NCBI RefSeq assembly: GCF_015169395.1
Contig: NZ_CP063458.1
Location: forward strand, 6,076,001-6,140,000
DNA length: 64,000 nucleotides
Direction: 5' to 3'
Source of the DNA: Humisphaera borealis
Lineage (GTDB): Bacteria > Planctomycetota > Phycisphaerae > Tepidisphaerales > Tepidisphaeraceae
Below the pieces are notes generated by a model. The model saw nothing but the letters and a program-made list of their open reading frames with translations, was not told the DNA's origin and ran no database searches. Below are positions 10,479 to 58,091 of this stretch, piece after piece. Position numbers and translations under genes: made by a program. Position 1 is the first letter of the stretch, and each line of letters begins with the position of its first letter.

Positions 10479-10550
10479 GGCCCCATCGTCTAGCGGTTAG
10501 GACACGGCCCTTTCAAGGCCGCGACACGGGTTCGATTCCCGTTGGGGTCA
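10479..10550 (+). tRNA. tRNA-Glu (anticodon TTC)
   Basis: A full cloverleaf can be folded. The acceptor arm GGCCCCA pairs with TGGGGTC at the 3' end with one G-U pair. The D-arm lies in the TCGTCTAGCGGTTAGGAC region. The anticodon stem CGGCC/GGCCG encloses loop CTTTCAA with anticodon TTC, and the T-arm ACGGG-TTCGATT-CCCGT is canonical. The CCA tail is not encoded. A hairpin follows about 25 bp downstream. Confidence 0.96.
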
Positions 10551-44122: not shown

Positions 44123-45292
44123 ATGCTCTATCTCTGGATCGGATTCATCGCCGCCGTCCTCGTCCTGGTGGCGCTCGACCTGTTCGTGTTCCACCGCAAA
44201 GACGAGGTGATGAGCATCCGGTCGGCTCTCAAATGGTCGGCGTTCTGGATCGCGCTGGCGCTGGTGTTCAACGTCGCGATCTACTTCATGTACGCCGGCC
44301 ACTGGCTCGGGCTGGGGCAGATCAAAACCACGCTGCACCCCAACGGCCTGAACGGGTTTGAGGCGGCGGCGTTGTTTTTCACCGGCTACGTCGTCGAGCA
44401 ATCCCTCAGCGTCGATAACCTGTTCGTGATGGCCGTCATCTTCGGCTACTTCGCGATTCCGCCGAAGTACCAGCACAGGGTGCTCTTCTGGGGCATCATC
44501 GGCGTGCTGCTGATGCGCGGCGCGATGATCGGTATCGGCGCGGCACTGATCTCGAAGTTCTCCTGGATCCTGTACGTATTCGGCGTGTTCCTGCTGTATA
44601 CGGCGTACAAGATGCTGTTCGGCGGGGGTGAATCCGATCCACAGAACAGCGCGATCCTGCGCTTCGCCCGCCGCTTCTTCCCTGTCACGCACGAGTTTCA
44701 TGGTCATCGCTTTGCGGTGCGCGAATCGGAATTGGGCGCGGCCGAGGACATCGACGAGCCCGAGGATGCCAAGACGCCACCCGCTGCTGCCGGACCGTCC
44801 GACGCCGCACCCACCACCGCGGTGCACCATCACGCCAAGCCAGGCTCCAACCGATGGGTGCTGACACCTTTGGCACTTGCGCTCGTGGTGATCGAGACGA
44901 CCGACCTCATCTTCGCCGTCGATTCGATTCCCGCCATCTTTGGTATCACCGACGACCCGTTCCTGGTTTTTACCAGTAACGTGTTTGCAGTCCTGGGGTT
45001 ACGGAGCCTATTCTTTGCATTGGCCGGCATCCTGGAGAAGTTCGAGTATCTCAAGGTCTCGCTTGCGGCCGTGCTGGCACTGGTGGGCGTCAAAATGCTT
45101 GCCAACAAGTGGCTGCACGACATTCCGGGGATCAACTTCTACATGCTGGGGCTGGTCGCGGTCTTCCTGACGGCAGGAATCGTCGCATCCATCAGGAGCG
45201 ACAGGCGAAAACAGGCCAACGCATCGAAGAATCCGGATATGTCATCCCATCCTGCGCCGGCTTCGCCGGTGAAAACCGACCCTCCGACCTGA
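44123..45292 (+). CDS. TerC/Alx-family membrane protein (first copy)
   Basis: The 389-residue membrane protein is of the TerC family, linked to Mn2+ export and metal supply to secreted proteins. Signature parts are VALDLFVFHRKDEVMSIRSA near residue 17, FFTGYVVEQSLSVDNLFVMA near 85-105 with the conserved acidic D, and VVIETTDLIFAVDSIPAIFG with DDPFLVFTSNVFAVLGLRSL in the second half. About eight or nine hydrophobic helices are present. A cytoplasmic linker rich in Pro/Ala/His (about 200-245) divides the halves. Unlike the next copy it is not preceded by a recognisable riboswitch. Confidence 0.93.
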   Translation: MLYLWIGFIAAVLVLVALDLFVFHRKDEVMSIRSALKWSAFWIALALVFNVAIYFMYAGHWLGLGQIKTTLHPNGLNGFEAAALFFTGYVVEQSLSVDNLFVMAVIFGYFAIPPKYQHRVLFWGIIGVLLMRGAMIGIGAALISKFSWILYVFGVFLLYTAYKMLFGGGESDPQNSAILRFARRFFPVTHEFHGHRFAVRESELGAAEDIDEPEDAKTPPAAAGPSDAAPTTAVHHHAKPGSNRWVLTPLALALVVIETTDLIFAVDSIPAIFGITDDPFLVFTSNVFAVLGLRSLFFALAGILEKFEYLKVSLAAVLALVGVKMLANKWLHDIPGINFYMLGLVAVFLTAGIVASIRSDRRKQANASKNPDMSSHPAPASPVKTDPPT

Positions 45293-45384
45293 GATGTTTC
45301 CCGCCTTGAAACACCGCTCGTTTTTGTAACGCCGGTGGAACCGATACTTCGCTAGTGTTCCGGCACGTGCTCGTGCACGAACTT

Positions 45385-45564
45385 TACAACCTGTCATCCC
45401 CTGGTGGGGAGTAGCTACCCCTGTCGGGGTGGGATCGTCGTCAACACGGTGTCGTCATTGACGCCCGGCGATCCCAATCGAAGCCTGTGACGGCATAAGC
45501 GTCGCGCCTTCGTTCGGCAAGACCACCCATTCGGCCAGCGTTGCTGGCCGGGGGTGGTTTTTTT
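45385..45564 (+). promoter_or_regulatory. yybP-ykoY (Mn2+) riboswitch with intrinsic terminator
   Basis: The leader has the hallmark GGGGAGTAGC (45406-45415), a paired element CTACCCC-tgt-CGGGGT, the segments CGTCGTCAACACGG and GTCGTCATTGACGCC, and GGCAAGACC before the 3' hairpin, in the order typical of the yybP-ykoY class. It ends in a strong terminator (ACCACCC and CGGCCAGC pairing with GCTGGCCG and GGGTGGT, then seven T residues at 45558-45564). Mn2+ binding would favour antitermination in this class. It lies 50 bp before the TerC start. Confidence 0.85.
45522..45564 (+). terminator. Terminator hairpin of the Mn2+ riboswitch expression platform
   Basis: The stem ACCACCC-att-CGGCCAGC / GCTGGCCG-GGGTGGT with loop GTT is followed by T7. 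It overlaps the 3' part of the aptamer, as needed for a transcriptional switch. Confidence 0.85.
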
Positions 45565-45613
45565 GTCGAACGATCCCGCCGCCCCGGCGGGACGTCGCGG
45601 ATTGGCTGCCGTC

Positions 45614-46789
45614 ATGCTCTGGATCTGGGTCGGTTTCGTCGCGTTCGTTCTCGTCCTCCTGGCGCTCGACCTGGGCGTCTTCCATCGCAAGGCTCATGTC
45701 GTTTCCGTAAAGGAGGCCCTGGGCTGGTCCGCCGTCTGGATCACCCTCGGGCTGGCTTTTTCAGGATTCGTTTACGTCGCGTACGAAAACCACTGGATGG
45801 GGCTGGGTACGGGCAGCGGCGGGGCGATCGTGGACCAGATGGCCGTCAGTGCGTCCAACCCTCTGGGCCAACTCGACGGCGCGACCGCCACCATCAAATA
45901 CCTGACCGGCTACGTCATCGAAAAGAGCCTGTCGGTCGACAACATCTTTGTCATCGTGATGATTTTCTCGTTCCTGGCGGTGCCGCAGATGTATCAGCAT
46001 CGCGTGCTGTTCTGGGGCATCATCGGCGCGCTCGTAATGCGCGGCCTCATGATCGGCGTGGGCGCGGCCCTGGTGAAGGAGTTCAGCTGGATCTTGTACC
46101 TGTTCGCGGCGTTCCTCATCATTACCGCGATCAAGATGTTGTTTCTCAAGTCGGGTGATCCGGATCCGAGCAAGAACGTGCTGGTCCGGCTGACGCGCCG
46201 AATCTGGCCCGTCACTGATAAGTTTCATGGCCAGCACTTCTTCGTCAAAGCCGGCTCGAACGCGAGCCACGAAACCGCCACCCCCGGATCGATGGTGGAA
46301 AGTGACCCCTCCGTCGAACGGATGGAAAAGGAACGTCCTGGCGTCTGGATGGCGACGCCGCTGTTTCTGGGCCTACTGATGGTCGAATTCACCGATCTGA
46401 TTTTCGCGGTCGACTCGATCCCCGCGATCTTTGCGATCACGACCGACCCGTTCCTGGTCTTTACGAGCAATGTATTCGCGATCCTGGGGCTTCGCAGTCT
46501 CTATTTCGCTCTGGCCGGACTGGTCGACAAGTTCCGCTACCTGAAGGTCGCACTCGCGTTCGTGCTGCTGGTGGTCGGCGTGAAGATGCTCACCCACACC
46601 TGGCTGAAGGAAATGCTCGGCGAGCACTTCAACTTCTACCTGTTGGGTGTCGTGCTGGGCATTCTGGCGCTGGGGGTGATCGCTTCGATCGTCGCGAATC
46701 GCCGTGACGCGCGGAAAGAAGGGGATGCGGGCAAGTCTGAGGGCGCAACGCTCGCGAAGCCCGCACCGCTCAGCAACCCGACGCCCTGA
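45614..46789 (+). CDS. TerC/Alx-family membrane protein (second copy, riboswitch-controlled)
   Basis: The 391-residue protein starts MLWIWVGFVAFVLVLLALDL; frames reaching into the terminator (GTG at 45554) are rejected as the start. Family blocks are GVFHRKAHVVSVKEALGW, YLTGYVIEKSLSVDNIFVIV, LLMVEFTDLIFAVDSIPAIF and TDPFLVFTSNVFAILGLRSL. It is clearly similar to the first copy along its length, so the pair looks like an old tandem duplication. The preceding yybP-ykoY element suggests induction by Mn2+ and a role in Mn2+ efflux. A long hairpin follows the stop. Confidence 0.94.
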   Translation: MLWIWVGFVAFVLVLLALDLGVFHRKAHVVSVKEALGWSAVWITLGLAFSGFVYVAYENHWMGLGTGSGGAIVDQMAVSASNPLGQLDGATATIKYLTGYVIEKSLSVDNIFVIVMIFSFLAVPQMYQHRVLFWGIIGALVMRGLMIGVGAALVKEFSWILYLFAAFLIITAIKMLFLKSGDPDPSKNVLVRLTRRIWPVTDKFHGQHFFVKAGSNASHETATPGSMVESDPSVERMEKERPGVWMATPLFLGLLMVEFTDLIFAVDSIPAIFAITTDPFLVFTSNVFAILGLRSLYFALAGLVDKFRYLKVALAFVLLVVGVKMLTHTWLKEMLGEHFNFYLLGVVLGILALGVIASIVANRRDARKEGDAGKSEGATLAKPAPLSNPTP

Positions 46790-48544: not shown

Positions 48545-48623
48545 GTAGGGTCCGCCTTGGCGGACGCCCGGCATGGGATCGCACAGCTTTTGCAACACGG
48601 AAGTCCGCCAAAGCGGACCCTAC
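48545..48623. repeat. Inverted repeat GTAGGGTCCGCC family, abutting nuoH start
   Basis: Arms 48545-48565 (GTAGGGTCCGCCTTGGCGGA then C) and 48603-48623 (GTCCGCCAAAGCGGACCCTA then C) differ by one base in complementarity. The right arm ends two bases before the nuoH ATG, so the nuoH ribosome site region is the repeat. Confidence 0.92.
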
Positions 48624-48625
48624 AG

Positions 48626-50431
48626 ATGACAGAAATCCTTGACTCCATCCTGAAGGACCCCCTCCACTTCATCTACACCCACGTTCCACCGTGGGTGTAC
48701 ATCGCCGCGATCTCGCACTTTGCGATCCTCGGCGTGGTGGCGTACCTGATCCTGCTGGAACGCAAGACCGCGTCGTGGGTTCAGGACCGCATCGGCCCCA
48801 ACCGCGTCGGCCTCGACTTCGGCATTCTCCCGTTCAAGTTTCTCAAGAACGTCAACGGCTTCGGCCAGCCCCTGGCCGACGGCGTAAAGTTCATCGTTAA
48901 GGAAGACTATAAGCCCAAGGGCGTCGACACCGTTCTGTTCACGATCGCCCCGGCGTTCATGGTGATCGTCATCATCATCTCGATCGCCGTCATCCCCTGG
49001 GGCGGGACGTATCAGAACACCAAAGACGTGGATGTAACGGGGACGAAGCAGACCTCGGGCATCGCAGCGATCGACGACAATCTGCCGCCGAGTACGACGG
49101 TCGTCAGTGCCTCCGGCAAGACCGACCTTGCCAAGCAGTCCACGCACTCCGTCTTCGAGATTTCCGGCCCCAAAGGCACCACCGATTACAAGGCCGCCGG
49201 CACCAAGGTGCTGGCGACCTACGAGATTCGCAACGCCGCCGGCCAGGTGCACCGGTATACCCGCGCGATCGATATCAGCGGCTACACCGAACCGTCCGAA
49301 GCGGCCGCCGTTCAAGCACGCCTGCCGGCCGATGCGGTTCTGTTGAAAACCGATGAGAAGGTGTCGATCGACGTCCCCATCGAACTGGTGAAGAACGCAG
49401 ACGGCACGTTCTCGGAAGTCGTCCGTAGCGTCGCCTATCGCTGGGAATTCGCCCCCGGACGGCTTGATATCGGCATCCTTTACGTCCTGGCCGTCCTGTC
49501 GCTCGCCGTCTACGGCGTGGTCGTCGGCGGCTGGGCCTCGAACAACAAGTACTCGTTCCTCGGCGGCCTCCGCGCGACCGCCAATATGATCTCGTACGAA
49601 ATCCCGCTGGGCCTGGCGATCCTGTGCGTCGTGCTGATGTTCGGCACGCTCGACATCGCCAAGCTCGTTGACGGGCAGGCCGGTTATTGGATCGGCGTGA
49701 TCCCCGCCTGGAACTGCTTCAGCCAGCCGTTGCCGTTTATCCTGTTTGTGATCTGCATTCACGCCGAAGCCAACCGCGCCCCGTTCGACACCGCCGAAGC
49801 CGAGCAGGAACTGGTCGGCGGGTATCACACCGAATACTCGGCGATGCGGTTCGCCCTGTTCTTCCTCGCCGAATACGCGGGCATGGTCACCACGTCGGCG
49901 ATCTGCGTTGCGTTGTTCCTGGGCGGCTGGCACCTGCCGTACCTGGACTACCTTTGGCCCGCCATCGGCGGCAACGTCGCCGGCGCGCCGGCGTCGGTTA
50001 CGGACAGCCTGATTGCCTGCCTCGTCCGCACGGGCGTCTTCTTCGGGAAGACCGTCGCCATCATCTTCCTGTTCATGTGGGTTCGCTGGAGCCTGCCCCG
50101 GTTCCGGTTCGACCAGATCATGATCCTGGCCTGGCGTGCCCTGATTCCGATCTCTCTGGCGCTGCTGATGGCAACCGCCGTCACGATTTACCTGACCGCC
50201 GGTCCGACGGCGGCGGGCGAACCGACCTTCGTGAAGCCGATCGCCGGTACGCTGGCTTTGGCGTTGCTCGCGATGAATGTGATCGTGCTGATCGCGACGA
50301 TGTTCATCAGCAAGCTGTTGCCGCAACCGTCACCGACCAACCGCAAGATGCCGCTACCCAACAGCCGTTTCCGAAAGACGCCGTTGCCAGGCAAACCCGT
50401 TGAGCGGATCCCGGTGGCTGCTGCGACGTGA
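48626..50431 (+). CDS. nuoH: NADH-quinone oxidoreductase subunit H with a large insert
   Basis: The 601-residue membrane protein is NuoH by its conserved blocks: ERKTASWVQDRIGPNRVG (about 45-62), NGFGQPLADGVKFIVKED, LYVLAVLSLAVYGVVVGGWA, NNKYSFLGGLRATANMISYE and AEANRAPFDTAEAEQELVGG. NuoH is usually 330-430 residues. The excess is mainly an insert of about residues 128-275 between the second and third membrane helices, with no hydrophobic segment (for example GTKVLATYEIRNAAGQVHRY). A C-terminal tail rich in Pro/Lys follows the last helix. The start has no clear Shine-Dalgarno sequence because the inverted repeat ends two bases before it. NuoH forms the membrane base of the quinone site. Confidence 0.94.
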   Translation: MTEILDSILKDPLHFIYTHVPPWVYIAAISHFAILGVVAYLILLERKTASWVQDRIGPNRVGLDFGILPFKFLKNVNGFGQPLADGVKFIVKEDYKPKGVDTVLFTIAPAFMVIVIIISIAVIPWGGTYQNTKDVDVTGTKQTSGIAAIDDNLPPSTTVVSASGKTDLAKQSTHSVFEISGPKGTTDYKAAGTKVLATYEIRNAAGQVHRYTRAIDISGYTEPSEAAAVQARLPADAVLLKTDEKVSIDVPIELVKNADGTFSEVVRSVAYRWEFAPGRLDIGILYVLAVLSLAVYGVVVGGWASNNKYSFLGGLRATANMISYEIPLGLAILCVVLMFGTLDIAKLVDGQAGYWIGVIPAWNCFSQPLPFILFVICIHAEANRAPFDTAEAEQELVGGYHTEYSAMRFALFFLAEYAGMVTTSAICVALFLGGWHLPYLDYLWPAIGGNVAGAPASVTDSLIACLVRTGVFFGKTVAIIFLFMWVRWSLPRFRFDQIMILAWRALIPISLALLMATAVTIYLTAGPTAAGEPTFVKPIAGTLALALLAMNVIVLIATMFISKLLPQPSPTNRKMPLPNSRFRKTPLPGKPVERIPVAAAT

Positions 50432-50550
50432 TTATGCGCGTTCGGCGCGGATCGACGGATTGACGCTCACCGGCTGCCGAAGAGAACCCACCCCTTCGGG
50501 GATGGCGCTAAACGTGGAAGGTCCTTCGCGTGATGCGCGGAGATTGAATC

Positions 50551-51087
50551 ATGAAAGAATCCGACGTCATCGTCCTGCAAGAACCCAAGCTGTCTCTCTC
50601 GGACCAGTTCTATCTCCCCCAGGTTCTGATCGGCCTGGGGACGACGATGAAGCACATGTTCAACGTCGTCGCGCGAGACAAGCATCTGGTCGTCTCGTAT
50701 CCCGAGGAACGCCGCGAGGATAAGCCCGTCGAAGAGGGCGGCATGTTCCAGCAGACATATCGCGGGGTTCACCGCCTGAACAAGGACGAAGACGGCCGAG
50801 TGAAGTGCGTCGCGTGCTTCATGTGCTCGACCGCGTGCCCGGCCCGGTGCATTCATATCGAAGCCGACGAGTCCCCCTGGGCCGATCGCGAAAAGTACCC
50901 GGCGAAGTTCGATATCGACGAGTTGCGCTGCATCTACTGCGGCATGTGTGAAGAAGCCTGCCCGGTTGATGCGATCGAATTGACGAGCCTGTACGACATC
51001 GTCGGCCTGACTCGCCAGGAAATGATCTTCGACAAGGCGAAGCTGCTGAGGGTGTACGACGAGACGGTCAAGGCTGAGCCGATGTGA
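50551..51087 (+). CDS. nuoI: NADH-quinone oxidoreductase subunit I
   Basis: The 178-residue protein has the two 4Fe-4S motifs of NuoI: CVACFMCSTACPARCI (about 90-105) and CIYCGMCEEACPVDAI (about 130-145), followed by DIVGLTRQEMIFDKAKLL. The N-terminal amphipathic part (LIGLGTTMKHMFNVVARDKH) fits membrane attachment. It passes electrons toward the quinone site. GGAG lies upstream at a good distance. A terminator follows, which ends this nuo block. Confidence 0.95.
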   Translation: MKESDVIVLQEPKLSLSDQFYLPQVLIGLGTTMKHMFNVVARDKHLVVSYPEERREDKPVEEGGMFQQTYRGVHRLNKDEDGRVKCVACFMCSTACPARCIHIEADESPWADREKYPAKFDIDELRCIYCGMCEEACPVDAIELTSLYDIVGLTRQEMIFDKAKLLRVYDETVKAEPM

Positions 51088-51129
51088 TCGGATCTGGCTT
51101 TGTGAGCCACGAAGAATTGCGACGAAAAC

Positions 51130-51172
51130 ACAAGAGACACCACGCCGGATGTGGCGCGGTGTCTCTTGTTTT
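51130..51172 (+). terminator. Terminator after nuoI
   Basis: The stem ACAAGAGACACC / GGTGTCTCTTGT encloses a smaller CGCC / GGCG pair and is followed by TTT. It ends the nuoGHI transcript about 45 bp after the stop. Confidence 0.75.
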
Positions 51173-51210
51173 AGTCGGTACCCATGCCGAAATCTGAAGA
51201 AAACGGGGAC

Positions 51211-51378
51211 CGTGGAGGATAAGCATTTTTGCCTGTCACTCGGGACCAGAACCGGTGTTCGAATTACGGGGATCACGGCTTATTCGCGCAGGGAGTGCGG
51301 ATCTGAAATCGTCGTCCTGGTGAATTCGAATACTGGTTCTGGTTCCGAGTGATAAGCAAGACTGCCGATCCTCCACGA
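51211..51378. repeat. Long inverted repeat between nuoI and the opposite-strand zinc-ribbon gene
   Basis: The left arm words CGTGGAGGAT, AAGC, CACTCGG, CCAGAACCGG, TTCGAATTA are mirrored on the right as GAATTCGAATA, CTGGTTCTGG, CCGAGTG, GCAAG, ATCCTCCACG. Arms are about 60 bases with mismatches. Confidence 0.8.
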
Positions 51379-51412
51379 TGCCTGGAATTCCTCGCGTTGC
51401 GGCAGGGGGTCC

Positions 51413-51913
51413 CTAATGCAGCGAGAGAAACACAAGCACGCCGACCAGCGCCACCAGCAAACCGATCGCCAGCGAGATCAGCCCCCAGGGCAGCGTGCTC
51501 TTGCCAGCGTTCGACAGTTCCGTCTGGGCGTAGACCACTGGCGCATCGTCGCCGGCGTGCGAGGCGACTTCCAGCAGGGCGTTGGGATCGAGATTGCGAT
51601 CCGCGAAGCAGGTCCTGCAGATGATGTCGTCACCATCCTGATAGACCTGGTCTGACGGGTACAGGCTGCGGCAGGTATTGCAGACGTAACCGGGCTCTTC
51701 GCCACGAGCGGCGAGTTTGTCGGCCCAGCAGTCGTGGCAGTAGTACTCGTTGTCGTCGCGAACGCGTTTGGCGTGGGTGATGTCATGGCCGCAGACGGCA
51801 CAAAGTTTGCGCACGGCGGGCAGCACCAGCTCGCCGCAACGCGGGCATCGCGACTCGCGGCGTCCTTCCGGCATGACACCGCGGCAGAGGGGACACTTGG
51901 CCAACACCGGCAT
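51413..51913 (-). CDS. Multi-zinc-ribbon protein with C-terminal membrane anchor
   Basis: The 166-residue protein has CPLCRGVMP, CPRCGELV, CAVCGHDITH with YYCHDCWADK, and CNTCRSLYP with IICRTCFADRNL: five to six C-x2-C knuckles in three or four ribbons. A C-terminal hydrophobic helix (WGLISLAIGLLVALVGVLVF) anchors it in a membrane with the ribbons presumably in the cytoplasm. An upstream extension of the frame is GC-rich and ignored. It faces nuoI end to end. Whether it belongs functionally to complex I is not shown. Confidence 0.8.
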   Translation of the reverse strand: MPVLAKCPLCRGVMPEGRRESRCPRCGELVLPAVRKLCAVCGHDITHAKRVRDDNEYYCHDCWADKLAARGEEPGYVCNTCRSLYPSDQVYQDGDDIICRTCFADRNLDPNALLEVASHAGDDAPVVYAQTELSNAGKSTLPWGLISLAIGLLVALVGVLVFLSLH

Positions 51914-51994
51914 GAGGAACCATCCTGGGCACAGCTGAACAAACGACGCCTCATGATACGCCGTGTCCGGGGCTGGCAGGGGGGTCGCAACGCA

Positions 51995-52023
51995 AGCAGG
52001 GGCGCGGGTGGTCCGCGCCCCTG
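51995..52023. repeat. Perfect 12-bp GC-rich hairpin
   Basis: GCAGGGGCGCGG and CCGCGCCCCTGC with loop GTGGT. It lies upstream of the zinc-ribbon gene, on its 5' side, so it is not its terminator. Role unknown. Confidence 0.7.
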
Positions 52024-52542
52024 CGGGCGTCCGCCGCACCCACTGTCCGAGCGGAACGCCCTGGTTGCGAAATTGCCGCAAACCGAGTGTGGTCGGCTCG
52101 CGACGTGTCGGCCGGTCGGAGGTGGCCGGCCGCTCCAACTGTGACTTACGAATACCTTCGGGGATGAAGATTCCGGCCGGTGCCGTGGTGCGATAACCAT
52201 CGAAGGGGATGAATTTGGGAAGGCGTTCCGGCCCGCCATGGCTAAGGCGGCCGCGCCTTCCGGGTGCAAGATTTCAAGGTTCAGCGACCTCAAGTTGCAA
52301 ACCTCAGCCTTCAAATTTCGAATCTAAGATTCGGTGACGCGCCGGCCGAGTTCAAAGTTCCGCTGTTTTCGACGGAAAGCCTGAAGCCTCCGTCATCGGA
52401 CGTCGCGTCTGGGAATCAGATACGCGATGAGCCTTGCCGGCAGAGCGGCGAAAGCCAGCGCATTTCGGGTGCGAAAGTTCGCGATCATCGGCTTGTCGGG
52501 GCGGGTGCTCGTGAAGGCTTGTGAAATTAGTCACAACCTTTC

Positions 52543-52571
52543 TTGCAAGAACACACCCCCCGTCTTAGACT
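52543..52571 (+). promoter_or_regulatory. Putative sigma-70 promoter for nuoJKLMN
   Basis: TTGCAA at 52543-52548 and TAGACT at 52566-52571 are 17 bases apart. The nuoJ start lies about 210 bp downstream. This would give the second nuo block its own transcript after the terminator behind nuoI. Confidence 0.4.
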
Positions 52572-52780
52572 CCGCCGCCATTCCCGAGGGCCTTGTCTGA
52601 CTGCCATTGGGAAGCGTGACTGTCGCCAGCTTTCAGACGCTCATCCGGTTGTTTTCCCGGACGATGTGCTGAAGGTTGCATGAACCAGAAGATGACTGCC
52701 GGCGCGAACGGCGGAGTGCCAACTCCACCGGATCGACCGTCCGGAACTCACGGCAGCGGACCCGGCGTCCGCATGTAAAC

Positions 52781-53728
52781 ATGCTCGCTGTCTCGTCCCT
52801 TGCCGCTTCCTTCTCCCTGCCAGCCCTGGCCCATTCGGCGCTGGCCGAAGCCTCAACGGCAGCGCCGCTTCTGCCGCCATTGCTGATCCTGCTGCTGTGC
52901 GTCGTGGCGGGAATCGCGACTTCGATGCTGTTGCCATCGAAGCGAACCGCCAACGTCCGCCGTATCGGCGGGGCGGTCCTGGTGCTGGCAGGACTGGCGT
53001 TTGCCGCCATGCTGTTCCACGCGACCTTCGGAGCGGGAACCGAGGCGGCGACCATCTACTTCTGGCCGTTCGCGGTCATCGCCTTGGTATCCGGCGTTCG
53101 CGTCGTCACCCACCCCCGGCCGGTTTACTCGGCCCTTTACTTCGTTCTGACAACATTCGCGTCGGCCGGTCTGTTCGTGCTGCTGTGGGCCGAGTTCATG
53201 GCCGCCGCCCTGATCCTGATTTACGCCGGTGCGATTCTGGTCACGTACGTGTTCGTCATCATGCTGGCTCAGCAGGCAACATCGCCTGACCAGTCGGCGA
53301 CGACCGAGAACGAGTACGACACGATCGCCCGCGAGCCCATCGTCGCGGCGACGGTCGGTTTCGCCATGATGGCGATGCTGCTGTTCGTCATTACCGATCG
53401 GTCCTCGGCGATTGCCAAGGTCGGCGAAGCCGCGATCGGACCGAATGGTAATCTGGTTGCCGAATTGGTCACCAAGGGCGAGTCGACCAAGGGCATCGGC
53501 CGACATCTGTTCGAATATCACCTCGTGAACCTTGAACTGGCAGGTCTGATCCTGACACTGGCGACCATCGGCGCGATCGTCATCACCCGTCGCAAGGTCG
53601 TGACGGCCGATTCGCCCAAGGTCGCCGCCGTGATGTCTACCCCGTATACGCCGATCGACGACAATCCGCACAGCATTCCGGTCTACGGGACGGACAACCC
53701 GAATCAGAAGGCGTACCCGGAAACGTGA
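52781..53728 (+). CDS. nuoJ: NADH-quinone oxidoreductase subunit J
   Basis: The 315-residue membrane protein contains the NuoJ core from about residue 90: YFWPFAVIALVSGVRVVTHP, RPVYSALYFVLTTFASAGLF, EFMAAALILIYAGAILVTYV. Helices near 185-205 and 245-265 complete the five-helix bundle. NuoJ is normally 160-220 residues. The extra N-terminal 85 residues hold a hydrophobic start (VSSLAASFSLPALAHSALAE) and two more membrane segments, and the C-terminal 50 residues are polar. The ATG at 52781 follows a poor ribosome site. It opens the second nuo block. Confidence 0.9.
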   Translation: MLAVSSLAASFSLPALAHSALAEASTAAPLLPPLLILLLCVVAGIATSMLLPSKRTANVRRIGGAVLVLAGLAFAAMLFHATFGAGTEAATIYFWPFAVIALVSGVRVVTHPRPVYSALYFVLTTFASAGLFVLLWAEFMAAALILIYAGAILVTYVFVIMLAQQATSPDQSATTENEYDTIAREPIVAATVGFAMMAMLLFVITDRSSAIAKVGEAAIGPNGNLVAELVTKGESTKGIGRHLFEYHLVNLELAGLILTLATIGAIVITRRKVVTADSPKVAAVMSTPYTPIDDNPHSIPVYGTDNPNQKAYPET

Positions 53729-53730
53729 TA

Positions 53731-53816
53731 AGGAAAGGATGAAGGATGAAGGCCGAAGGATGAATGAGTTGACGTTGGCTCGATTTCATCCTTCAAAATT
53801 CCGCCTTCCTCCTTGG
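53731..53816. repeat. Inverted repeat GAAGGATGAAGG family between nuoJ and nuoK
   Basis: The left arm AAGGATGAAGGATGAAGG plus CCGAAGGATGAA pairs imperfectly with TTCATCCTTC and CCGCCTTCCTCCTT. The right arm ends six bases before the nuoK ATG. Confidence 0.8.
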
Positions 53817-53821
53817 ATTCA

Positions 53822-54130
53822 ATGACCCAGCTCGCCCTCCAACAATACCTGATCGTCGGCGCGATCATGTTCGCCCTCGGGCTCATCGGGTTTATGACCC
53901 GTCGGAACCTGATCGTCATGTTCCTGAGCACGGAACTGATGTTCCAAGGGGTGACCGTCAACCTGATCGCGTTCGGCCATTACCACAACAATCTGTACGG
54001 GCAGGCCTTCACGATCTTTGTCCTAGTGGTCGCCGCCGCCGAAGCGAGTTTGGCGCTGGGCTTGGTCGTGCTGCTGTTCAGGACCAAGAACACGCTGGAT
54101 GCCGACGCGTGGCGAGAATTGAAAGGGTGA
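53822..54130 (+). CDS. nuoK: NADH-quinone oxidoreductase subunit K
   Basis: The 102-residue protein has three membrane helices and the NuoK motif set: YLIVGAIMFALGLIGFMTRR, NLIVMFLSTELMFQGVTVNL (with the conserved helix-2 Glu) and FVLVVAAAEASLALGLVVLL (second conserved Glu). Length is standard. It belongs to the proton-pumping arm. It can start at ATG 53822 or TTG 53813; ATG is preferred. There is no clear ribosome site, the preceding bases being the pyrimidine-rich arm of the repeat. Confidence 0.94.
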   Translation: MTQLALQQYLIVGAIMFALGLIGFMTRRNLIVMFLSTELMFQGVTVNLIAFGHYHNNLYGQAFTIFVLVVAAAEASLALGLVVLLFRTKNTLDADAWRELKG

Positions 54131-54134
54131 AGAC

Positions 54135-54238
54135 AAGTAGGCAGTACGCAGTAGGCAGTGGGCAGAGAAATCAGCCAGCTGCCAATCGCGAAGACTGCCA
54201 CTCTTCACTGCGTACTGATTACTGCCTACTGCCTACTT
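54135..54238. repeat. Inverted repeat GTAGGCAGTACGCAGTAGG family between nuoK and nuoL
   Basis: The left arm AAGTAGGCAGTACGCAGTAG then GCAGTG pairs with CACTGCGTACTG, ATTACTGCCTACTGCCTACT on the right. The right arm ends about three bases before the nuoL ATG. Confidence 0.88.
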
Positions 54239-54241
54239 TTT

Positions 54242-56356
54242 ATGGATTTCGCCCTCCAATATCCTTACCTGATCCCCTTGCTCCCGCTGATCGGGGCGAT
54301 CATCGCCGGGTTCTTCGGGGCCAGGTTCCTCAAGGGTCAGTCACACTGGCCGATCTGGCTGGGCGTCGGTGCGGCGGCGGTGCTGTCACTCACCTTGCTC
54401 GTCCATGCCCTTGGCCTTCACGAAGAACCCCTCAAGTTCTCCTACACCTGGTTCCAGTGGATCAAGCTCGGCGGTTCCGCCGACGGTGCCCTCGGCCAGC
54501 CGGGTAAGTCGTTCCTGGTCAACTTCGGCTACTACTTCGATCCGCTCACGAGCGTCATGCTCGCGGTGGTCTGCGGGATCGGTTTCTTCATTACCGTTTT
54601 CGCCGCCGGCTACATGAAGGGCGAAGGCGGTTACTACCGGTTCTTTGCCTACCTCGGGCTGTTCATCTTCATGATGACCAACCTGGTCATGGGCGAGAAC
54701 CTGATCATGCTCTACCTGGGGTGGGAAGGCGTCGGCCTCTGCTCCTACCTGCTGATCGGCTACTATTACGACAAGCCCGCCGCCCGCGAGGCCGCCAAGA
54801 AGGCGTTCCTTGTCAACCGCATCGGCGACTTCGGTTTCGCGCTGGGCATCATGCTTTGCTTCTCGGCATTCGGCACGGTCAGCTACTTCGGCGATCCGGC
54901 CGTGGCCGGTGACGGCCTGCTGGAGATGGCCGCCGCGGGCAACCTGACTGAGTACCAGACCTGTGCGCTGACCTTCATTCCGTTCCTGTTGATGGTAGGT
55001 GCGTTCGGCAAGAGCGCCCAGTTCCCGCTGTACGTCTGGCTCCCCGACGCCATGGAAGGCCCGACCCCCGTGTCGGCGCTGATCCACGCCGCCACGATGG
55101 TGACCGCCGGGATCTACATGATCGCCCGTTGCGGTTCGCTGTTCGTTGGCAACGAGGCAGCGATGATTACCGTTGCGGCCGTCGGCGCTTTCACCGCGAT
55201 CTTCGCCGGGTTCATCGCCCTGCGGCAGTTCGACCTGAAGAAGGTATTCGCCTACTCGACGGTCAGTCAGCTCGGCTTCATGTTCGTCGGTGTCGGTGTG
55301 CTGGCACCCGTTGCCGCCGTCTTCCACCTGGTTACCCACGCGTTCTTCAAGGCACTGCTGTTCCTGTCATCCGGCGTGGTGATGCACGCGATGAACGGCA
55401 TCCTCGACCTGCGGCAGATGTCCGGTCTGAAGGAAGTGCTGCCGAAGACCCGCTGGCTTATGCTTATCGGTTGCCTGGCGCTGGCGGGCATGGTGCCGTT
55501 CAGCGGGTTCTTCTCGAAGGACGAAATCATCCACGCCGCCGAGCATGGTGCGCTTCATGGCCACATCGGCCGGCTGATCCTCACCGTCGTGTTGCTGGCG
55601 ACGGCGTTCATGACCGCCTACTACACGTTCCGCCTCTACTTCCGCGTCTTCGAAGGCCCGCTGAAGGTTCCTGAAGCCCCGGCGGATGCCCACGGGCACG
55701 GCGGACATGGACACGACGATCACGGGCATGGCGGTCACGACAGCCATGGTCATGGTGACCACGGCCATCACAACCACGAGCCGATGATCATGATCGCGCC
55801 GTTGGCTGTTCTCGCCGTCGGCGCGCTCCTCGCCGGCTTTCTCAACTGGCCTGTGCACGGACTAGGCCATTTCCTTGGGGAGAGCGAATCGTTCAAGCTC
55901 GCCTACAAGGTCGCCAGTGCCCGCTTTGCCGAACTCGACCCGGTTCCGATGGGCCAGCCAAGCTCCGAGGCCCATGGCCTGGTGAATGCCGTGATGGTGA
56001 TCAGCTTTGTGATCGCCGCCCTGGGTATCTTCACAGCTTACGTCTTCCACCTGAAGGACCGGGCACTGGCCGACCGCAAGGCCGCCGGCATGCCCGCCGT
56101 CACCAGCCTGCTCGACGGCAAGTTCTGGGTGGATGAGATCTTTATCGCCGGTATCGTGGAGCCCCTGCGGATGTTCGGCAAGGTGCTCTGGAACATCGAC
56201 AAGTACCTCGTGGACGGCATCGTCGCCGCCGTCGGATGGACCCCGCAGCTCGGCGGCTGGGTGCTGAAGCTCGGTGTGCAGCGGGGAAGCCTGCAGGGTT
56301 ACGCCGCCGCGATGCTGTTCGGTGTGGTTGTGATTCTGGTGCTGGTGTTCATGTGA
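54242..56356 (+). CDS. nuoL: NADH-quinone oxidoreductase subunit L with His-rich loop
   Basis: The 704-residue antiporter-like subunit has the classic NuoL blocks: FVNFGYYFDPLT-like SFLVNFGYYFDPLTSVMLAV, LGWEGVGLCSYLLIGYYYDK, AQFPLYVWLPDAMEGPTPVS, LIHAATMVTAGIYMIARCGS, AYSTVSQLGFMFVGVGV. A loop of about residues 480-515 is extremely His/Gly/Asp-rich (13 His in 33 residues: HGHGGHGHDDHGHGGHDSHG continues similarly). The C-terminal amphipathic and terminal helix region follows (FWVDEIFIAGIVEPLRMFGK). The ATG at 54242 lies right behind the inverted repeat; an upstream frame through the repeat is not used. Confidence 0.95.
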   Translation: MDFALQYPYLIPLLPLIGAIIAGFFGARFLKGQSHWPIWLGVGAAAVLSLTLLVHALGLHEEPLKFSYTWFQWIKLGGSADGALGQPGKSFLVNFGYYFDPLTSVMLAVVCGIGFFITVFAAGYMKGEGGYYRFFAYLGLFIFMMTNLVMGENLIMLYLGWEGVGLCSYLLIGYYYDKPAAREAAKKAFLVNRIGDFGFALGIMLCFSAFGTVSYFGDPAVAGDGLLEMAAAGNLTEYQTCALTFIPFLLMVGAFGKSAQFPLYVWLPDAMEGPTPVSALIHAATMVTAGIYMIARCGSLFVGNEAAMITVAAVGAFTAIFAGFIALRQFDLKKVFAYSTVSQLGFMFVGVGVLAPVAAVFHLVTHAFFKALLFLSSGVVMHAMNGILDLRQMSGLKEVLPKTRWLMLIGCLALAGMVPFSGFFSKDEIIHAAEHGALHGHIGRLILTVVLLATAFMTAYYTFRLYFRVFEGPLKVPEAPADAHGHGGHGHDDHGHGGHDSHGHGDHGHHNHEPMIMIAPLAVLAVGALLAGFLNWPVHGLGHFLGESESFKLAYKVASARFAELDPVPMGQPSSEAHGLVNAVMVISFVIAALGIFTAYVFHLKDRALADRKAAGMPAVTSLLDGKFWVDEIFIAGIVEPLRMFGKVLWNIDKYLVDGIVAAVGWTPQLGGWVLKLGVQRGSLQGYAAAMLFGVVVILVLVFM

Positions 56357-56438
56357 GAAGTCAGGAGTTCAACCTGGGAGCCGGAAGGAAATCCTTTCGC
56401 TCTCTTCTAACTCCTCGCTCCTAGCTTCTAACTCCTTG
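56357..56438. repeat. Weak inverted repeat AGTCAGGAGTT family between nuoL and nuoM
   Basis: The left words GAAGTCAGGAGTTCA, CTGGGAGC, GGAAGGA face right words TCTTCTAACTCC, CGCTCCTAG, CTTCTAACTCCTT. The pairing is looser than in the other spacers but the same purine-then-pyrimidine order is seen. Confidence 0.6.
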
Positions 56439-58091
56439 GATTTCATGCTCCTCGTTCTCCTCATCATCCTCCCGCTGATCGGCGCGATCGCCTGTGCGTA
56501 CTCACCCAAGCCCCTGGCCAAGGCCGTTGCGTTGGGATTCAGCGTTGCCACGCTTGTGTTCGGCATCTACGTCGCGCTGGAGTTCTATGCCGGCAAGACG
56601 CTCACTTTCGAAGGCCCGGCCGCCGCTTCGCTCGGCTTTACCTTCAAGCTGGGTGTTAACGCAATCAGCCTTTGGCTGATGGTCCTGACGGTGGGAATCA
56701 CGCCGCTGGCGATCGCCGCCAGCTTTGACTCGATCAAGGATCGTGAGAAAGAGTATTACGCCTGGATGCTCGCCCTCCTGGTGGCGATGAACGGTGTATT
56801 CCTCGCGAAGGACGCGCTGCTGTTCTACGTCTTCTTCGAACTCACGCTGGTGCCGATGTTCTTCATCATCGGCATCTGGGGCGGCCCCGATCGCCGCTAT
56901 GCCGCCAACAAGTTCTTCCTGTTCACGTTTGCCGGCGGCGTGCTGACCCTCGCCACGGTCGTTTTCGTCGGCATCAAGTACGGCACGTTCGACCTCGATC
57001 TGCTCATCAAGTACGCCCAGCAGGGCGGGACCGTCGCGGGTCACTTTGTCCCCAAACTCACCGATACAGAAAAGTTCTGGGTGTTCCTCGGCTTCCTCGC
57101 CGGTTTCGCCGTCAAGGTGCCGCTGTTCCCAGTTCACACCTGGCTGCCGCTGGCACACACCGAAGCCCCGACGGCCGGCTCGGTCATCCTGGCCGGCGTG
57201 CTGCTCAAGCTCGGCACTTACGGCATTCTCGCCGTCGCGATCCCGATCGGCCTGATCAACGCCGACGGAACCAGCCCGTTCAAGACCACCATCCACGTGC
57301 TCGGTGTGCTGTGCGTCATCGGCGTCATCTACGGTGCTTTGGTCGCGTGGGTGCAGCAGGACATCAAGAAGCTGGTCGCCTACTCGTCAGTTTCCCACTT
57401 GGGCTTCTGTGTGCTGGGCATGCTGGCGTTGAACGACATCGGCATGCAGGCGTCCGTCCTGTACATGATCAACCACGGTATCAGCACCGGCGCGATGTTC
57501 CTGTGCATCGGCATGATCTACGACCGCTACCACACCCGTGACATCAATGCACTGTCGGGATTGGCCAAGCGGATGCCCATCCTCGCTTTCTTCTTCGTCT
57601 TTTTCGTGATGTCGAGCATCGGCCTGCCGGGGCTCAATGGTTTTGTCAGCGAGTTCTTCACGATCCAGGGCGCGTTCTACAGCCCGTACCTTGGCCCCTG
57701 GTTTGGTGCGTTTGCCGCAACCGGCGTCGTGCTGGGCGCCGTGTACATGCTGCACATGACCGCCAAGGTCATCATGGGCCCGCTCAAGACCCCGCTTGAC
57801 GTCGAAGCACAGGCCGGCGGTCATGGCGATGGTCATGGGCATGGCGGACATGGCCATGGCGACGCACACGGTTCACACCCCATCCCCGGCGACATTGGGA
57901 TGCGTGAGATCGGTATTCTCATTCCGCTGGCGATCGCGGCGATCGTGCTTGGCGTGCGACCCGGTTTCGTCAGCGACAAGATGCTCGAACCCCTGGCACA
58001 GATCCGCGGCGGAAGCGCCACCGTCGTAAAGGTGGCCGATGTACCGGCCAAGCCAGAAGCAAAGCCGGTCGTGACGCTGAATGAGCGATGA
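56436..58091 (+). CDS. nuoM: NADH-quinone oxidoreductase subunit M with His-rich loop
   Basis: The antiporter-like NuoM is 551 residues if it starts at TTG 56436 or 548 from ATG 56445. Key blocks: YAWMLALLVAMNGVFLAKDA, FYVFFELTLVPMFFIIGIWG (conserved Glu in helix 5), VKVPLFPVHTWLPLAHTEAP, LVAYSSVSHLGFCVLGMLAL. A His-rich loop near residues 460-485 (GGHGDGHGHGGHGHGDAHG) parallels the loop of NuoL. The tail ends in a Lys/Pro-rich stretch. TTG gives MDFMLLV, close to the MDFALQY of nuoL. Confidence 0.94.
   Translation: MDFMLLVLLIILPLIGAIACAYSPKPLAKAVALGFSVATLVFGIYVALEFYAGKTLTFEGPAAASLGFTFKLGVNAISLWLMVLTVGITPLAIAASFDSIKDREKEYYAWMLALLVAMNGVFLAKDALLFYVFFELTLVPMFFIIGIWGGPDRRYAANKFFLFTFAGGVLTLATVVFVGIKYGTFDLDLLIKYAQQGGTVAGHFVPKLTDTEKFWVFLGFLAGFAVKVPLFPVHTWLPLAHTEAPTAGSVILAGVLLKLGTYGILAVAIPIGLINADGTSPFKTTIHVLGVLCVIGVIYGALVAWVQQDIKKLVAYSSVSHLGFCVLGMLALNDIGMQASVLYMINHGISTGAMFLCIGMIYDRYHTRDINALSGLAKRMPILAFFFVFFVMSSIGLPGLNGFVSEFFTIQGAFYSPYLGPWFGAFAATGVVLGAVYMLHMTAKVIMGPLKTPLDVEAQAGGHGDGHGHGGHGHGDAHGSHPIPGDIGMREIGILIPLAIAAIVLGVRPGFVSDKMLEPLAQIRGGSATVVKVADVPAKPEAKPVVTLNER

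Follow-up and report, generated by a model that had tools for sequence, protein, structure and literature searches.

In E. coli, the REPs of the malE-malF spacer are intercistronic mRNA-stability elements. GTAG-REPs have been described with a placement near gene ends, where their TAG supplies stop codons (PMC3733652), i.e., the same arrangement as we report below. Furthermore, arrays of the heptamer TAACTGA are known from Beggiatoaceae and Cyanobacteria, from a study that also cites long simple sequence repeats (PMC4679880). In the BOGUAY genome, 169 of the TAACTGA sets are direct and one is indirect (PMC4679880).

Here, we investigate inverted repeats (IRs) in the spacers of a nuo operon. The window, i.e., the whole analysed stretch of 64,000 nucleotides, corresponds to positions 6,076,001-6,140,000 of G000, a genome of 7.19 Mb in a single contig. 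Based on Pfam, nuoG, H, I, J, K, L and M are recognised within it. On the plus strand we find nuoH (48626..50431; 601 aa), nuoK (53822..54130; Oxidored_q2), nuoL (54242..56356; Proton_antipo_M/N) and nuoM (56445..58091; Proton_antipo_M, Oxidored_q5_N). A long central insertion splits the NADHdh match of NuoH into two stretches, and the relatives L155 and L156 are likewise split. NuoL carries a His-rich stretch (window 55698-55780; HGHGGHGHDDHGHGGH...), and two TerC-family genes lie side by side just upstream of nuoG (window 44123-46789). The nuoI-nuoJ spacer is 1.7 kb long (window 51088-52780) and contains a minus-strand ORF (51413-51826) as well as a terminator-like hairpin after nuoI (51130-51169).

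The original prediction placed IRs directly before the starts of nuoH, nuoK, nuoL and nuoM. These IRs are real: their arms could be located, and all four spacers fold far better than mononucleotide shuffles, with z-scores of -5.6 (H), -4.4 (K), -6.3 (L) and -5.1 (M). In total, 16 IRs with a score of at least 15 are found window-wide compared to 0-1 in Markov sequences. The spacers were said to be successive, which does not hold. That is, the four IRs occupy G-H, J-K, K-L and L-M, the IR scan of the H-I and M-N spacers finds none there, and the I-J spacer holds another IR (51211..51377; score 32.5) with 55-bp arms (51211-51265 and 51323-51377), which is part of a different multicopy family (cluster of 11 in the own-genome sample introduced below).

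The four elements are of two kinds. The nuoG-nuoH spacer element (48545..48623; IR score 18.5) is formed by two GTAG-tagged REPs arranged as a head-head dimer. Its arms, i.e., GTAGGGTCCGCCTTGGCGGAC (48545-48565) and its inverse (48603-48623), each consist of GTAG followed by a GTCCGCC..GGCGGAC stem, the second one being inverted. They are separated by a loop of 37 nt, which lies within the 20-100 bp spacing of such dimers, and many close +/- pairs of the nuoH word are present in G000. The elements before nuoK, nuoL and nuoM are hairpins of degenerate 7-base words. Before nuoK, the words are AAGGATG, arranged in an imperfect hairpin (53735..53814; array 53735-53764). Before nuoL, the arms (54135-54169 and 54204-54238 of the element 54135..54238) are built from AGTAGGC/AGTACGC. 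The nuoL-nuoM spacer (56357..56444) holds an imperfect hairpin of GGAGTTA-like words. A tandem repeat finder reports period-7 arrays with 4.3-4.4 copies in the nuoK and nuoL arms, such that both elements are heptamer tandem repeats with a 7-nt unit, several copies and many loci. Their arms are not themselves tagged palindromes, and the nuoL arm has no hairpin inside. The nuoM words are too degenerate to be classified as heptamer tandem repeats, and, judged by reading the sequence, the nuoM arms are not tagged palindromes either. Since their arms are imperfect, the nuoK and nuoM hairpins reach ungapped IR scores of only 11 and 7, respectively, though both spacers fold strongly. With regard to the starts, the 3' arms had been placed 2-6 bases from the ATG for nuoH, nuoK and nuoL. 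This fits nuoH (2 nt before the ATG at 48626) and nuoL (3 nt, ATG at 54242), while the nuoK hairpin ends 7 nt from its ATG (53822). The arm before nuoM does run into the start as claimed, i.e., the folded base reaches the ATG (56445) at a distance of 0 nt.

The nuo hairpins match no known structured RNA family, as Rfam covariance models (gathering score, whole window) match only a tRNA (10479-10550). Considering intrinsic terminators, a scan for hairpins with loops of 3-8 nt, which does not cover the large hairpins, yields 17 sites vs. 10.8 in shuffles. On the plus strand it reports none in G-H, J-K and K-L, and in L-M a single weak site, which is an inner hairpin (56382-56399). A short T run directly follows the nuoL hairpin. 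Within this loop range, we find no clear case of a nuo hairpin acting as terminator.

The copy numbers of the nuoH, nuoL and nuoK words were determined for at most two mismatches, with the reversed pattern as control, which gives 0-3 matches across these words. The body of the nuoH word is found 293 times in G000 (152 forward, 141 reverse, 0 control). The nuoL triple word shows 92-124 matches, where overlapping matches within arrays are counted (3 control), and the triple word AAGGATG of nuoK has 26. An intact triple GGAGTTA, i.e., the nuoM word, is present in 0/26 family genomes. Besides, the heptamer GTAGGCA forms long one-sided arrays at G000:C1:650428-650498 and 1986987-1987078 (8-11 overlapping matches), which have no evident inverted partner among the listed matches.

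The distribution within G000 was studied on a sample of 100 stretches of 20 kb plus the window (2.06 Mb, 29% of the genome), for which genes were called with a simple home-made hexamer model with uncertain starts and IRs were detected without gaps. Co-directional spacers contain IRs in 306/874 cases, convergent ones, where no start is near, in 92/248 and divergent ones in 39/205. Strong IRs from a smaller first sample are intergenic in 287 of 301 cases and lie in genes in 14, with genes covering about 80% of the sequence. Palindromes are presumably eliminated from genes and thinned out where a spacer bears a promoter. Where a co-directional spacer of the 2.06-Mb sample contains a single element, 188 elements are nearer to the stop and 84 nearer to the start (p=2.6e-10), and 3' arms that end at most 12 nt from a start are depleted (42 observed vs. 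76 expected under uniform placement). Given this preference for the stop side, we reject selection for start placement as a general rule, and the placement elsewhere in the genome speaks against a required role of the repeats at starts. The only exception are heptamer hairpins in tight spacers, which lie close to the stop as well as to the start. For the motif GTAGGGTSSG, 29/122 sites in the own-genome sample supply the TAG stop codon of the upstream gene (e.g., L063, L131, L132).

These data also bear on the function first proposed, namely that the hairpins mask or position the ribosome sites of nuoH, nuoK, nuoL and nuoM and tune subunit ratios, with the purine-rich 5' arm acting as Shine-Dalgarno (SD) and the pyrimidine-rich 3' arm as anti-SD sequence. 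The polarity as such is correct. Its SD/anti-SD sense is not, because an IR is strand-symmetric and the same bias is found between convergent genes (purine-first arm in 25 vs. 7). Likewise, it is literally true that no SD remains between arm and start, but this is ordinary because only 37% of the ATG genes in the genome are preceded by an SD 4-mer (12% background; 63% without). The hairpin bases at 0-7 nt from the ATG would fit a hidden site. Still, the predicted openness of the ATG with and without hairpin is little changed for nuoH (0.38/0.35), nuoK (0.57/0.59) and nuoL (0.60/0.69), such that the folding model does not support hidden start codons for these three genes. For nuoM, the predicted openness is 0.31 with compared to 0.87 without the hairpin, and according to the model a hidden start codon is possible there. 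Considering also the genome-wide depletion at starts as well as hairpin-free relatives, which are discussed next, we regard control of the ribosome site in this form as highly improbable.

For the comparison with relatives, 20 family members were considered and hairpins were recognised by visual inspection of the listed spacers. About half of them have no hairpin at J-K or K-L, at L-M it is missing from more of them, and their spacers are often 3-20 nt long. For instance, the J-K spacer is repeat-free and 3-9 nt long in G008, G024, G016, G011 and G004. With a hairpin it spans 93-112 nt, as found in G001, G002, G023, G022, G021, G017 and G013, and in weaker form in G006. The presence at K-L and L-M is just as patchy. 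Mapped onto a NuoJKLM tree, hairpin presence must have changed at least 5, 7 and 3 times at J-K, K-L and L-M, respectively, and is therefore not explained by simple vertical inheritance, which dismisses the idea of one ancient hairpin per junction. An empty site is provided by the congeners G002 and G023, where the K-L spacer of G002 has a hairpin insert of ~140 nt vs. 8 nt (CAACCATT) in G023. That so many relatives have repeat-free nuo spacers argues against a requirement for the repeats.

The words differ between genomes, too. The J-K word AAGGATG is found 26 times in G000 vs. once in G001, and AAGTNTG 40 times in G001 vs. 0 times in G000. The word AAACGTG is present in G002, G023 and a few other genomes, and AAAAAGG in G021 and G004. 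That is, different genera show different words at nuoJ-K, and each tested genome draws on its own pool. For G000 and G001, flanks and register of the J-K spacer align but the words differ, and the K-L words are common to both. Independent re-insertion and in-place overwriting of words both fit the J-K data.

IRs are found in 19/71 of the relatives' nuo spacers vs. 7/80 neighbouring spacers (p=0.005), which is not a clean control because some short contigs contain only nuo genes. In analogy to known intercistronic elements, the hairpins might stabilise mRNA, i.e., protect it from 3'-exonucleases, such that the amounts of the nuo segments become unequal. Both the strong folding inside the operon and the stop-side bias would be in line with this, as would the higher frequency in nuo spacers. 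However, convergent gene pairs and spacers unrelated to nuo often contain such elements as well, and the nuo spacers of many relatives do without a hairpin. We thus consider such a role quite unlikely.

Since the hairpins belong to repeat families that are dispersed by the hundreds, and relatives lose or swap them, they resemble inserts that the operon tolerates more than inherent controls of translation. The reading we favour, with a probability of roughly two in three, is that the nuo spacers hold dispersed palindromic repeats (a GTAG-REP dimer and heptamer hairpins) that recurrently colonise gene ends, are tolerated as they are compact, and serve no required function. This agrees with the second option of the original prediction, i.e., neutral mobile repeats in tolerant operon spacers. 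Copy number, dispersion, the word pools specific to each lineage and empty sites all support this option. Accounting for the individual elements, the one before nuoH would be a GTAG-REP dimer, a type of element that REP-associated tyrosine transposases mobilise. Those before nuoK, nuoL and nuoM would be formed by degenerate heptamer words, drawn from a pool that each genome has amplified independently. A new copy may settle or survive just 3' of a stop codon. Because operon spacers are tight, an insertion next to the stop then also adjoins the next start. It would be tolerated because both arms form one compact hairpin, such that the stop, the start and any SD remain near one another in the folded RNA. 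In the long run, a copy may disappear, return or have its words replaced with others from the pool of its genome.

For REP-type elements, spreading by transposition is plausible, as 11 Y1 (Y1_Tnp, RAYT-like) transposase matches are present in G000, some of them flanked by REP-type repeats. The loci L169, L164 and L171 have a REPtron-like organisation with the Y1 transposase between REP-type repeats (CGCTCCGC..GGCTAACC; GTGACACGGGC..; CATTCTTG). The nuoH REP word GTAGGGTCCGCC is found at none of the 11 loci (~1.5 kb on each side). The same holds for heptamer IRs, and we therefore discard a RAYT as mover of the heptamer elements. That no transposase adjoins a heptamer element at these loci counts against the favoured reading.

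Further observations that it does not readily explain concern the heptamer hairpins in tight spacers, i.e., spacers of <40 nt when empty. Here, the heptamer class was set after looking at the data, gene starts are predicted, and the p-values given here and above stem from several tests on the same data and are uncorrected for multiple testing. Heptamer hairpins are enriched in tight (26/168; 15.5%) vs. loose (23/706; 3.3%) co-directional spacers (p=4e-8), and also compared to tight convergent ones (6/91; 6.6%; p=0.047). Most of them begin at most 20 nt after the upstream stop, and the distance from 3' arm to ATG has its mode at 7-8 nt. At nuoJ-K, it is 6-9 nt in the seven relatives with a clear hairpin. 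When the hairpin ends 3-14 nt before the start, an SD immediately precedes the 5' arm in 8/18 cases vs. 32/318 elsewhere (p=4e-4) and vs. 19/115 among others within 20 nt of the stop (p=0.011). With joined flanks, an SD is present in 16/44 cases, which is about the genome average of 37%, compared to 9/44 in the linear sequence. An example is G023, where the stop is followed by AAGGAG, the hairpin, about 6 nt and the ATG.

These numbers point to an alternative in which a heptamer hairpin between SD and ATG is looped out, folding restores a distance of ~7 nt, and the structural spacer may set the efficiency of re-initiation. They are small, however, and neither nuoH nor nuoL has a clear SD before the arm. 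Over all element classes, the SD displacement is significant when unmatched (13/44 vs. 16/203) and lost once elements are matched for stop distance (10/36 vs. 8/59, p=0.11), such that we dropped it as an all-class effect and retain it as suggestive for the heptamer class only. Compensatory changes are informative as well: in homologous hairpins of two congeneric pairs, three double changes keep the pairing and one breaks it. This favours looping out over mere tolerance if it results from selection, but it could also be due to template-switch repair of quasi-palindromes. Considering furthermore that many relatives dispense with the hairpins, we rate a looped-out ribosome site as unlikely. A weaker form of ribosome-site control is nevertheless kept alive by the heptamer hairpins in tight spacers and the SD often found before their 5' arm. 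Somewhat more doubtful is an extension of this idea, in which heptamer hairpins would be a word-free structural feature of tight operon junctions. Here, the stem position (5' arm after stop/SD, base ~7 nt before the ATG) would be kept while the word is overwritten repeatedly from private pools, and SD and start would be apposed by looping out.

Following the favoured reading, the operon spacers of this planctomycete family are colonised by many hairpin-repeat families, some with genome-private heptamer words, and the striking arrangement in a core respiratory operon is explained by repeat colonisation, with no need to assume regulation. The same junction with different words, along with congeneric empty sites, provides a natural experiment that can test the neutrality of compact hairpins between SD and start. 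If looping out were true, it would reveal a ribosome site that tolerates, or even uses, long structured inserts.

Compared to the REPs of the E. coli malE-malF type, the nuo elements are alike in being hairpins between co-transcribed genes near the upstream stop, and differ in that any effect on RNA or protein levels is hypothetical for them. The closest counterpart of the nuoH element are GTAG-REPs, with which it shares the terminal GTAG, the self-complementary body and, as in head-head dimers or REPINs (PMC3733652; PMC3116915), inverted copies (here 37 nt apart). Also alike are the hundreds of copies, the position near upstream gene ends and the use of TAG as stop. We assign it to no named family, and unlike in those systems, none of the 11 Y1 loci shows a transposase flanked by the nuoH word. 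The heptamer elements resemble the TAACTGA arrays (PMC4679880) with regard to the 7-nt unit, the intergenic location, lineage-restricted words, a frequent position just before starts and the scarcity of SDs. In contrast to TAACTGA, two inverted arrays of the nuo heptamers form a single hairpin, and many different words are in use per genome.
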